From positions 558,001 through 622,000 of the forward strand of contig NZ_CP050497.1 in assembly GCF_018336815.1 (NCBI RefSeq): a stretch of DNA of 64,000 bases, in the 5' to 3' direction. The position numbers and the translations under genes were made by a program. Below are positions 4,676-43,457 of the stretch, in pieces. The first letter of the stretch is position 1. The number at the start of each line of letters is the position of its first letter. The stretch comes from Treponema vincentii (GTDB lineage Bacteria; Spirochaetota; Spirochaetia; Treponematales; Treponemataceae). The notes beneath the pieces were generated by a model, which searched no databases, was not told where the DNA came from, and worked only from the letters and a program-made list of their open reading frames with translations.

Positions 4676-5590
4676 TTATAGCCTGTTTTCTATCCATCCC
4701 AAGATATCGGCTTTTACTTCTTCTTTATTTGTCTCATTTAAGATTTCGTGTCGGGCGTTTTCGTATAGTTTTAACGTTACATCCCGTATCCCGATATTCT
4801 GATAGATACGATAAAGGGTTTTCAGCATTTTGCCTCCGTTGGAAACGGGGTCTTCCGAACCGGCGGTAATGAGAATAGGTAAATCAGTTGGTATACCTTT
4901 TAAAGCTTCTTGCGTATGGAGCCTTTTTAAACCGCGCATAAAATCCTGAAAGAAACCTGCAGTACAGACAAATCCGCAGTATTCATCATCGATATATTTT
5001 TTTACTTCGTTTTCATCCCTCGAAAGCCAGTCAAAGGCTGTGTGCGGATTTTTGATTCTGTTGTTATACGAACCGAAAACTAATGCATTCATAAACTTGG
5101 CAACGGATTTTCTCCCTTTGAATGCGCAGGTAAGGCTTGCAAGCAGCGAGGCAACAGATACGCTGGGGTTAGGACCTGCAGAACCGATGAGAACGGCCGC
5201 CTTTACCGTTGTACCGTACCGTTCGATGTATTCCTGCGTTACAAAGGAGCCGAACGAATGCCCGACGATGACATTTGGAAGTGCAGGATACTGTTTTTGT
5301 ATCTCCGCATTGATTTCTTTTTGATCTTCGACAACACGTCCGAACCCGTCTCCGTCGGCAAGGTACCCCATTAAGCCGCTCTTTGCACCGGTCTTTCCGT
5401 GACCGCGGTGGTCGGATGCAACTACGGCAAAACCTTTTTTGCACGCTGCCTGTGCAAAATCATCATACCGGAGAGCGTGCTCCGCCATCCCGTGCACGAT
5501 ATGCAGCACCGCCTTCGGATGTTGTTCAGGAAGCCATGTATAAACGGCGAGGGAAGCGCCATCGCTCATTGTCTGATACGTAGTTTGCAT
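4676..5590 (-). CDS. Alpha/beta hydrolase, monoacylglycerol lipase / lysophospholipase type
   Basis: 304 residues. The hydrolase fold is clear: an oxyanion strand HIVHGMAEHALRY (30-42), DHRGHGKT (60-67), the nucleophile elbow GHSFGSF with Ser112, an Asp in ITAGSEDPVSNGG and the catalytic His in ARHEILNET. This is the pattern of monoacylglycerol lipase-like enzymes (serine aminopeptidase S33 domain), probably acting on host-derived lysophospholipids or monoglycerides. The notable point is upstream: the ATG sits directly behind a 160-bp multi-hairpin repeat that recurs in front of ygeY. The repeat supplies the GGGAG ribosome site. Confidence 0.85.
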   Translation of the reverse strand: MQTTYQTMSDGASLAVYTWLPEQHPKAVLHIVHGMAEHALRYDDFAQAACKKGFAVVASDHRGHGKTGAKSGLMGYLADGDGFGRVVEDQKEINAEIQKQYPALPNVIVGHSFGSFVTQEYIERYGTTVKAAVLIGSAGPNPSVSVASLLASLTCAFKGRKSVAKFMNALVFGSYNNRIKNPHTAFDWLSRDENEVKKYIDDEYCGFVCTAGFFQDFMRGLKRLHTQEALKGIPTDLPILITAGSEDPVSNGGKMLKTLYRIYQNIGIRDVTLKLYENARHEILNETNKEEVKADILGWIENRL

Positions 5591-5598
5591 CGTCTTTA

Positions 5599-5758
5599 TC
5601 TCCCATAAAAAGTCAAGAAGAAAGTATCAACTTTCGATTGACTTTTTACGCACGTTCACAACGAAGTGAGAACGTGCAGATGATATACAAGTTTGCGTTT
5701 GAGCAAACTTGAGTAAATAAAAGCCGTGCCATTTGTACGGCTTTTATTTTACACTCCT
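5599..5758 (-). repeat. Structured leader repeat, copy A (in front of the hydrolase gene)
   Basis: Read on the minus strand, this 160-bp block starts AGGAGTGTAAAAT and ends GGGAGA, 8 nt from the hydrolase ATG. It contains four hairpins in order: AAAAGCCGT...ACGGCTTTT followed by ATTT, CAAGTTTGC...GCAAACTTG, GCACGTTC...GAACGTGC, and AAAAAGTCAA...TTGACTTTTT with an inner GAAAGT/ACTTTC stem. Copy B at 39488-39647 matches it nearly base for base. The hairpin-2 loop differs while its stem is kept. It begins 8 bp from the hexosaminidase stop, so it fills the whole intergenic space. Confidence 0.9.
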
Positions 5759-26239: not shown

Positions 26240-26663
26240 GCAGGGCAAACGCATCAGGCCTTTTGAAAATATGCGGGCATCTGCGTTGTCGCTACGCCAA
26301 AATAAATGCTCAACGTACAACAAGTACGTCTCCGCTTTATTTCGGCTAGCTTCTAGCATCTGCGCCACCTATTTTCAAAAGGCTTACGAAGAGACTGTTC
26401 AATCGGAACTGCCATGGATGGCAGTGGTACCATGCAGTAGAGATGTTTTGTGCGCGCACAAAACTCGCCTTCAACTGATGTACACGGATGTACATCAGTT
26501 GAAGATGGCTCAAATGGTCGCCCAACCTCTGTTATTCTGCGACTTTTATCTATACGGTCTGATGCATTTGCCCGCTTGCTGAAAAAAATGTGCGAAATTT
26601 TATTTAAAATTTCGCACAGATGGAAGGCAACCGCTTAAAATATTTCCGATGCGTTTGACCTGC
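26240..26663. repeat. Palindrome-packed element with GCAGGGCAAACGCATC ends
   Basis: The block is bounded by GCAGGGCAAACGCATC (26240-26255) and GATGCGTTTGACCTGC (26648-26663), a one-mismatch inverted repeat. Inside are AGGCCTTTTGAAAATA/TATTTTCAAAAGGCTT (26256-26385), ACTGCCAT/ATGGCAGT (26408-26425), the 18-bp palindrome at 26446-26463, a perfect 16-bp stem at 26469-26504 and GTGCGAAATTTT/AAAATTTCGCAC (26590-26617). It fills the whole convergent gap, from 6 bp after one stop to the first base of the next stop codon. A second element with the same ends lies at 43503-43648. Confidence 0.85.
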
Positions 26664-39354: not shown

Positions 39355-39383
39355 TTGACATAAGAATTTTTCGCTTCTATAAT
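39355..39383 (+). promoter_or_regulatory. Perfect sigma-70 promoter upstream of ygeY
   Basis: TTGACA (39355-39360), 17-bp spacer, TATAAT (39378-39383): both hexamers and the spacing are consensus. The direct repeat AGCTAAAAAA at about 39309 and 39329 just upstream may be an operator or UP-like element. The predicted leader is about 260 nt and contains leader repeat copy B. The part 39086-39354 has no gene that I can see. Confidence 0.85.
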
Positions 39384-39487: not shown

Positions 39488-39647
39488 AGGAGTGTAAAAT
39501 AAAAGCCGTACAAATGGCACGGCTTTTATTTACCCAAGTTTGCGTGCTGCAAACTTGTATTATTATATGCACGTTCTCACTTCGTTATGAACGTGCGTAA
39601 AAAGTCAATCGAAAGTTGATACTTTCTTCTTGACTTTTTATGGGAGA
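39488..39647 (+). repeat. Structured leader repeat, copy B (in front of ygeY)
   Basis: This matches copy A (5599-5758, opposite strand) from AGGAGTGTAAAAT to GGGAGA. It has the same four hairpins in the same order. The first is terminator-like, and the last has a 10-bp AAAAAGTCAA/TTGACTTTTT stem directly before the ribosome site. The changes relative to copy A fall in loops and spacers (for example the hairpin-2 loop), while stems are kept. That pattern points to an RNA role. Confidence 0.9.
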
Positions 39648-39651
39648 AAAC

Positions 39652-40998
39652 ATGAGTTTGGATTTTAACAAGATTAAAACTGCAGCAGAAGGATATAAGG
39701 CCGACATGACCGCCTTTCTGCGCGAAATTATCCGCCTTCCCAGCGAAAGCAGTCAGGAAGGGGAAAAAGCAAAGCGCATCCAAAAGAAAATGGACGAGCT
39801 CGGATTTAACAAAACGTGGATCGATCCGCTTGGTAACGTAATGGGATGGATGGGTACCGGCCCGCACATTGTTTGTTTTGACGGTCATATCGATACGGTC
39901 GGTATCGGTAACCGCGACAACTGGAAGTTTGACCCCTACGAAGGATTCGAAGACGATATATTCATCGGTGGACGTGGGGTTTCGGATCAAACCGGCGGCG
40001 TTGTTTCTGCAATGTATGCCTGTAAGATGATGAAGGACTTAGGCCTTCTTAACGATAAATACACCGCTATGGTAGTAGGCTCCGTACAGGAAGAAGACTG
40101 CGACGGTATGTGCTGGGAGTATATCCTGAAAAAAGACGTCAAAGTACCCGGATATGAAAAACTCTGCAAGCCCGACTTTGTCGTTTCCACCGAACCGACC
40201 GACGGCGGTATTTACCGAGGGCACCGCGGACGTATGGAAATCCGCATCGACGTTAAAGGCGTTTCTTGTCACGGTTCCGCACCGGAGCGCGGCGATAACG
40301 CAATCTACAAGATGTCCGACATCCTGCAGGAAGTACGCAAGTTAAACGAAAACGATGCTGCAGACGGCACCGAAATTAAAGGTCTCGTCAAAATGCTCGA
40401 TAAAAAATACAACAAGGAATGGGAAGAAGCAAACTTCCTTGGCCGCGGAACCGTTACCGTTTCCGAAATTTTCTATACCAGCCCGAGCCGCTGCGCCGTT
40501 GCGGACTCCTGCTCCGTTTCGCTTGACCGCCGTATGACGGCCGGAGAAACATGGGAATCCTGCTTGGAAGAAATCCGCCAGCTTCCCGCCGTTAAAAAGT
40601 ACGGAAAAGACGTAAAGGTGTCGATGTACAATTACGACCGGCCGTCATGGACGGGAGAACAATATCCGATCGAATGTTTCTTCCCCACGTGGGTACTGCC
40701 GAATGAGCATGTCGTTGCCCGCTCAATCGTGGAAGCATATCACAACTTGTACGGCGATAAGCGTATCGGCCCGAAAGATCAGATCGCAATGCGCGAAGCC
40801 CGCCCGCTCGTCGATAAGTGGACATTCTCCACAAACGGCGTGTCCATTATGGGACGGAACAAAGTCCCCTGCGTCGGTTTCGGACCGGGAGCGGAAGCAC
40901 AGGCTCATGCCCCGAACGAAATTACTTGGAAACAGGATTTGGTAACGTGCGCTGCTGTGTATGCCGCGCTGCCGTCCATATACGTTGAAAAACTATAA
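39652..40998 (+). CDS. ygeY: YgeY-family M20 hydrolase
   Basis: 448 residues from ATG 39652 (GGGAG 5-8 nt upstream; ATG 39640 is an alternative). It is very like E. coli Yge[16 protein letters not shown] with metal His/Asp, [55 protein letters not shown] and [12 protein letters not shown]20-type dinuclear zinc hydrolase, cytosolic. In E. coli and gut anaerobes ygeY sits with ygeW, ygeX and hyuA in a selenium-linked, purine/ureide-degrading cluster. The exact substrate is not settled. Only ygeY-ygeW are kept here. Confidence 0.93.
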
Positions 40999-43054: not shown

Positions 43055-43457
43055 GTTGCTATGGGCATCTTTTAAAAACTCCTGATTTTTTGAATAAATT
43101 CATTTTTATGCTTCCAAAGGAGCTGTCCAAAAACTGGAAGCCTATCGGCTTTTCTGTAAGGAAATGATTTATCATATCCGCTAAAGCGGATTGCGTAATA
43201 GTTTTTGGGCAGTTTCCTTAGATCTAGATGCGATGTTACGATAAAAACGGTACGTCCTTGTACCGTCTTTATCTTCAAGTTTTCTCATCGAAAACTTGTT
43301 ACTGTTAAAACCACTGCCATCCATGGCTAATTTAAAAATCATTACTGTATAAAAACTTAACTTTAAACTCGTTATCAGCTATGCTGATGAGGGATGTCCG
43401 TGGTTATAAGCAGTAGCAAGATTTGTGTTACGCACGAATCTCGTCCCTTCCTTGGAT
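43055..43457. other. Hairpin-rich non-coding stretch
   Basis: It holds GGAGCTGTCCAAAAACT (43119) against AGTTTTTGGGCAGTTTCC (near 43200), TCCGCTAAAGCGGA, AACGGTAC/GTACCGT followed by CTTT, AAGTTTTC/GAAAACTT and ATCAGC/GCTGAT. A 68-codon minus-strand frame (43072-43278) crosses these palindromes and is not convincing. Confidence 0.5.

Follow-up and report, generated by a model that had tools for sequence, protein, structure and literature searches.

Why two unrelated genes should share nearly the same multi-hairpin leader is the question raised by a 64,000-nucleotide stretch of the Treponema vincentii genome (the window). The initial annotation proposed either a riboregulator that had spread or an insertion element that had become a leader. 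Both copies were confirmed where it had placed them, in the same orientation relative to the gene, one upstream of ygeY and one upstream of an alpha/beta hydrolase gene (Table 1). The copies are identical in 148 of 159 alignment columns (93.1%), and each has four hairpins and ends at a ribosome site. The claim that stems are kept while loops vary is likewise borne out by the comparison: no difference between the copies falls in any stem, and the differences lie in the linker between H1 and H2 (one), the H2 loop, the linker between H2 and H3, and the H3 loop. The fold energy is -57.5 kcal/mol, compared to a mean of -33.9 kcal/mol in 200 shuffles (z -5.9), and the 10-bp stem of H4 stops 3 nt upstream of GGAG. 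An in-frame ATG for ygeY is also present at the end of the element (39640). The predicted promoter upstream of ygeY would place the element in the 5' UTR.

Table 1. Coordinates of the two elements, their parts and the adjacent genes in the window
Feature	Position	Strand	Remarks
GGAG, left copy of duplicated target	39489..39492	+	empty site with one GGAG in G001, G002, G004 and G006; overlap of the flank matches exactly 4 bases
TD-1 core, subfamily A, 150 nt	39493..39642	+	without counterpart at the locus in four relatives; Rfam RF03155, 74.9 bits
GGAG, right copy, Shine-Dalgarno of ygeY	39643..39646	+	5 nt upstream of ATG
Hairpin H1, 13-bp stem	39497..39531	+	arms 39497-39509/39519-39531; 5' arm beyond Rfam match
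Hairpin H2	39535..39557	+	arms 39535-39543/39549-39557
Hairpin H3	39569..39596	+	arms 39569-39576/39589-39596
Hairpin H4	39599..39639	+	outer arms 39599-39608/39630-39639; outer stem 10 bp, inner stem 6 bp, internal loop UC/UUC
ygeY (selenium metabolism-linked hydrolase)	39652..40998	+	TIGR03526, 624 bits; start is the ATG of the relatives
Predicted sigma-70-like promoter, TTGACA-17-TATAAT	39355..39383	+	12/12 consensus matches; ca. 105 bp upstream of element
Second element, whole	5600-5757	-	limits set from empty sites
GGAG, left target copy of second element	5754..5757	-	empty-site comparison
Second TD-1 core, 150 nt	5604..5753	-	G001 without element; G002 and G006 with element; Rfam 63.2 bits
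GGAG, right copy, Shine-Dalgarno of hydrolase gene	5600..5603	-	9 nt upstream of ATG
Alpha/beta hydrolase gene	4676..5590	-	PF12146

Contrary to the initial annotation, which knew of no named RNA family of this kind, positions 39524-39645 match the Rfam family TD-1 (RF03155) at 74.9 bits, above the gathering cut-off of 64.5. The second copy (5601-5722, minus strand) scores 63.2 bits (E 6e-8) over the full model length, 1.3 bits short of the cut-off, and since it is 93% identical to the first copy the cut-off is missed by a narrow margin only. Both window copies span the full length of the Rfam model, and the first 31 nt of the element, including the 5' arm of H1, lie beyond the match. Rfam assigns TD-1 the type Cis-reg and places it in clan CL00124 together with TD-2 (RF03162). 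Sequence and structure of the Rfam family and the window element are the same, but the cis-regulatory type stands against an insertion with a 4-nt target duplication as described below; TD-1 is thus an RNA family already named, and the evidence for mobile insertion is new here. In the open-licence literature no paper was found on TD-1 or TD-2 by name, and a term search of the main text of PMC2864571 gave no mention of either. No title on a ribosome-site-targeting element or on Treponema repeats was found there, which for open-licence literature is weak evidence of absence.

The genome that contains the window (G000, 2.71 Mb) harbors at least 58 TD-1 matches with E-values up to 0.001 (150 of 327 candidates scored). 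The family is present in at least 14 of the 40 genomes searched, G000 included (up to 67 candidates scored per genome); a 1.1 Mb genus member gave no TD-1 match in this search. Treponema parvum ATCC 700773 has 67 matches, and the metagenome-assembled genomes behind loci L183 and L178 have 12 and 27, respectively. Sorting of the 58 G000 copies by eye gave 10 copies of subfamily A, the type of both window copies (GGAG-TGTAAAA ... CTTTTTATG-GGAG; two of them degenerate), and six of subfamily B (GATAAA ... TTTTTATA-GGAG). The remaining 42 matches comprise 24 copies of subfamily C (TTTATTTT or TATAACTTCGG ... TTTTAAGG), 11 of subfamily D, which is C-like and lies within one larger repeat, and seven without anchor. 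The subfamily A copy of T. parvum is 96.2% identical to the hydrolase leader of the window, whereas the window copies are only 93.1% identical to each other; because of this closer match, horizontal spread of TD-1 is possible. Tandem arrays also exist, with four and five units in G003 and GGAG at every junction.

When DNA of the ygeY locus was searched against the genus genomes, the site proved to be empty in all four comparable relatives (G001, G002, G004 and G006). These have AGAGGAG-GAAGCATGAG, with one GGAG, whereas the window has AGAGGAG, 150 nt, and then GGAG-AAAACATGAG. G003, with matches only within ygeY and elsewhere, and G005, with no match, fall outside this count. At the hydrolase locus the site is empty in G001, G002 and G006 carry the element, and the DNA of G004 is different there. 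A relative's site was compared at 20 loci (18 fetched loci with 20 sites, and the two window loci), the junctions being read by eye. The 4-nt duplication is clean at 15 loci, with a single copy in the empty site, and imperfect at two (1737469 and 2540238); three loci (979362, 1836360 and 139379) gave no verdict. Among the 15 clean loci, the relative's site differs by one base at 2674347 and 1522165, and locus 763954 is clean in the G002 and G006 copies and has three extra bases on the left in the G000 copy. At the same site in related genomes the element is either present or absent, and the occupied site carries a 4-nt target duplication.

The target sequence differs between subfamilies. In subfamily A the 4-mer is GGAG in 30 of 41 copies on the left and in 32 of 41 on the right. 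In subfamily C the 4-mers vary on both sides together (GACG, GATG, AAAG, GAGG, AAGA, AACG, with AAGG common), and the repeat is therefore a target duplication and not a fixed end of the element. Exact agreement between the two 4-mers was found in 11 of 23 C copies (12 of 24 with a misfiled copy), where re-pairing of the ends would give 4.1 and none of 50,000 re-pairings reached as high; with AAGG pairs removed, five of 17 agree and 1.0 is expected (p 0.001). For this count 35 of the 58 matches were anchored and 12 were set aside as subfamily D, the misfiled C copy 2674347 among them. The other half of the C copies has no exact 4-nt repeat, through mutation or otherwise. A pair of A copies, L231 in G006 and L086 in G000, precedes the same gene as judged by its N-terminus, with different junctions; the repeat of L231 is ca. 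9-10 nt long and G002 is empty at that locus. From these junctions the two are possibly independent insertions at one ribosome site.

The relation to gene starts was analysed for 41 subfamily A copies, chosen for good alignment with the window copy (8 in G000, 21 in G006, 4 in G002, 2 in G004, 5 in G001 and 1 in T. parvum). The set leaves out the two degenerate G000 copies and the copy at the hydrolase locus of G006, which precedes the same start. According to a script, the ATG of an open reading frame of at least 40 amino acids lies 2-14 nt past the right 4-mer in 37 of the 41 copies, at 5-9 nt in 31 of these. Inspection raised the number to 40, by two copies before a gene with an in-frame TGA and one before a short fragment resembling IS3 orfA by eye; only the T. 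parvum copy has no start codon after it. Loci are partly shared between species, and L235 and L236 look like one, so these copies correspond to about 30 independent loci by hand count. Nearly every subfamily A copy that was examined occupies a GGAG-like site 2-14 nt ahead of a start codon, and the genes are unrelated. In 368 kb of G000, counting the sites of the elements themselves, 121 of 1910 GGAG and 63 of 450 AGGAG sequences are spaced from a gene start as a ribosome site would be. As only 6-14% of such sites serve as ribosome sites, the motif alone fails to explain the placement of subfamily A.

The link to start codons that the initial annotation asked about holds for subfamily A but not for most other TD-1 copies of the genome. 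An ORF ATG follows within 16 nt in 14 of the 16 A and B copies of G000, compared to two of the 42 other matches (Fisher p ca. 1e-9). Of the two exceptions among A and B, one is the leader of a gene with an in-frame TGA and the other is the first unit of two in tandem. In 13 other genomes, an ORF ATG lies within this distance for 18 of the 28 best matches. Eight C sites, taken from 10 C loci with a fetched relative, were checked, with ORF products named by eye. Six lie in ORFs that are seemingly open in the relatives (an AraC-type regulator, GNAT, an ABC ATPase, a restriction-subunit-like protein, a PIN-domain protein and an unassigned product), and of the remaining two sites, one is a ribosome site. 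With such sites, some TD-1 copies probably interrupt genes, unlike a regulatory leader.

The genes that follow eight of the 10 G000 A copies encode YgeY, the alpha/beta hydrolase, aspartate carbamoyltransferase (pyrB), an FGE-sulfatase-domain protein, a family 5 solute-binding protein, a Na/H exchanger, GAPDH and a CC/Se selenoprotein, and a common theme is not evident. Two A leaders, G000:C1:381488 (L085) and G006:C1:1043791 (L217), precede a gene with an in-frame TGA. With TGA read as selenocysteine, the G000 protein matches NF041239, a family of CC/Se-motif (seleno)proteins, at 63 bits (cut-off 40).

The comparisons make it highly probable that the leader represents one copy of TD-1, a short mobile element without coding sequence, which in two of its subfamilies inserts into a Shine-Dalgarno sequence and whose duplicated target restores the GGAG. 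A mobile origin in itself is strongly supported by the empty sites, the 4-nt target duplication and the unrelated downstream genes. The second origin envisaged in the initial annotation, an insertion element turned leader, fits. Mechanistically, a putative enzyme that recognizes the hairpins would make a staggered 4-nt cut, the element would insert into the Shine-Dalgarno sequence, and the target duplication would return GGAG to the gene at about the same distance from the ATG. Because the target is duplicated the gene would regain GGAG, and the insertion would only lengthen the 5' leader by ca. 154 nt; because the target is asymmetric, the orientation to the gene is fixed. The four hairpins, which vary in paired fashion between subfamilies, would be the recognition feature, as folded DNA or as RNA, and we propose that any effect on expression is secondary. 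The start linkage of subfamily A could come partly from selection after insertion. Counterpoints to a mobile element are the irregular junctions at 1737469 and 2540238, the extra bases at 763954, the longer repeat of L231, the T. parvum A copy that lacks a start, the half of subfamily C in which the 4-mers do not agree exactly, the lack of inverted repeats at the ends of the five elements tested and the lack of a tested enzyme family common to all carriers searched.

Conservation of the hairpins was analysed in alignments of the family. The RNAalifold consensus of 47 diverse copies keeps 28 pairs, all 28 with two-sided changes, and 89.9% of the cells in this alignment are paired, compared to 60.2% for shuffled controls and no more than 50% when slid. 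Within subfamily A (40 rows), 98.0% of the cells are paired and seven pairs show two-sided changes versus 1.1 in shuffles; since the structures come from the very sequences tested, and the copies are related to one another, both covariation controls overstate somewhat. Alignment A1 was made without copy 623306, which is joined to a TD-2-like sequence, and A2 without L236, which is the same as L235. The test for covarying stem changes suggested at the outset thus gave a positive answer, both across the family and within A. Variation is 0.022 in stems versus 0.093 in unpaired columns. This shows that pairing matters, and it is compatible with RNA or folded DNA as the selected molecule.

The Rfam type corresponds to a different explanation, in which TD-1 is a true cis-regulatory RNA and a regulon leader spread by giving each gene useful control. 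The start linkage of nearly all A copies, the structure kept through covariation, the proximity of H4 to the Shine-Dalgarno sequence and the position of the ygeY element downstream of a predicted promoter agree with it, as does the count of G-U pairs over 53 copies (81 in sense folds versus 54 in antisense folds, p 0.007). Strong selection on the sense RNA would be expected to give a clear G-U excess, but the difference is not significant among 33 dissimilar copies (51 versus 37, p 0.11), and G-U is not above A-C within subfamily A (18 versus 27 cells). In the family alignment about 40 G-U and 29 A-C cells were counted (hand sum), and antisense folds are more stable than sense folds. The unrelated genes downstream (hydrolases, pyrB, GAPDH, an antiporter, a solute-binding protein, a selenoprotein), the lack of the ygeY leader in four relatives and the six of eight C sites within relatives' ORFs also argue against a regulon leader, which we consider unlikely.

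A higher probability, still short of even, is given to insertion at GGAG-like sites anywhere, followed by selection that spares copies at ribosome sites, with no real targeting. This is compatible with a mobile element and differs on targeting only. In its favour, duplication keeps the ribosome site and its spacing intact and GGAG is common; however, 59 of the 69 wholly intergenic GGAG sites in the window are not ribosome sites and subfamily C persists at other places, so that under selection alone some A copies would be expected outside ribosome sites. An origin of the copies through ordinary recombination or gene conversion between repeats, and not by transposition, is very improbable: tandem arrays and internal deletion derivatives do occur, but the flanks vary between copies, and variable 4-mers duplicated at the ends are not expected from repeat recombination. 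A more specific version of the mobile-element explanation, in which the putative enzyme recognizes the element in its folded form and is guided to regions of translation start, with ribosome-binding sites as a genome-wide safe harbour, is put forward tentatively and is less likely than not. If true, the leaders of dozens of genes in carrier genomes would be interchangeable and made by a transposon.

Candidate enzymes for mobilization of TD-1 were searched as PF01797 (Y1), PF00078 (RVT_1), PF12784 (PDDEXK_2) and PF01609 (DDE_Tnp_1) in 25 genomes including 10 TD-1 carriers (G000-G004, G006, G009, G010, G013 and G015; carriers G018, G020, G021 and G023 are outside these sets). None of the tested families is common to all carriers, each being absent from at least two of the 10. 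RVT_1 was found in five carriers and not in G001, G002, G003, G010 and the 70% complete G013, which applies to present genomes only, and DDE_Tnp_1 was found in four and not in the other six. PDDEXK_2 tracks TD-1 best, with eight of 10 carriers (missing in G003 and the 70% complete G013); tried as a TD-1 helper it was rejected, since it also occurs in three of six same-family non-carriers and therefore shows no tie to TD-1. In REP elements with RAYT and in IS200/IS605, hairpins are recognized as single-stranded DNA. TD-1 likewise has hairpins, which may be recognized in that form, but a Y1 transposase was found in none of seven genus genomes and among the 10 carriers in G013 only. IS200/IS605 elements are not known to make a target duplication.

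Terminal inverted repeats beyond those of shuffles were absent in all five elements of subfamilies A, B and C (p 0.14-0.91), which is unusual for a cut-and-paste MITE. A search for an autonomous parent gave 13 partial matches, taken with 150 nt of flank, none with two ends around a transposase gene. Several of these are internal deletions with one end kept beside the ribosome site. The deletion forms L159 and L160 (G001, G006) and L157 (G000) retain only H1, or H1 and H2, and end at the ribosome site; the deletion in L159 seems to join two TTTTAT stretches. Copies at G021:C1:587284 and 892502 (L116, L117) have ca. 70 extra nt in the H4 loop, and the ORFs after them, one of which is short, resemble PDDEXK-type putative transposases by eye.

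Similar to bcr1 and the other Bacillus cereus repeats, which PMC6542083 describes as 100-400 bp long, with mobile features, a repeated short TTTAT motif and a mean of about 39 copies per strain in the case of bcr1, TD-1 is a short repeat with many copies, mobile features and a short repeated motif. Unlike TD-1, bcr1 repeats TTTAT and belongs to another phylum. MITEs, treated with the pneumococcal BOX, RUP and SPRITE elements in PMC3049150, are characterized there as short, non-coding, AT-rich and base-paired, with target duplication, and transcription of BOX as operon extensions is mentioned as possible. By this description TD-1 resembles MITEs in being short (150 nt core), non-coding, AT-rich and base-paired, with many copies (at least 58) and a 4-nt target duplication, and differs in having four separate hairpins and no inverted repeats at its ends. 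For IStrons, insertion is reported to be harmless to the host gene (PMC4227781), through self-splicing, whereas harmlessness of TD-1 would come from ribosome-site duplication.

On the evidence here, an RNA motif that was predicted by computation and classed as cis-regulatory is a transposable element, and its location before genes is therefore explained by the landing site, not by a ligand. Covariation together with a 5'-UTR location is insufficient as proof of a riboregulator. Ribosome-site duplication would be a simple route into the control region of a gene without breaking it, and the set of occupied and empty sites is usable for a direct test of leader effects.

The window also contains two copies of TD-2 (RF03162), at 26408-26507 (plus strand) and 43236-43330 (minus strand), both in intergenic tracts dense in repeats. 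Parts of these tracts have matches at dozens of places in several genomes of the genus, and most of the ca. 450 bp that surround the TD-2 copy at 26408-26507 are missing from G001. Elsewhere in G000, near 1836500 on C1 (L066), a run of about 18 G lies beside a subfamily C copy, and G002 also has a G run at the matching place; this run is possibly a phase-variable tract.
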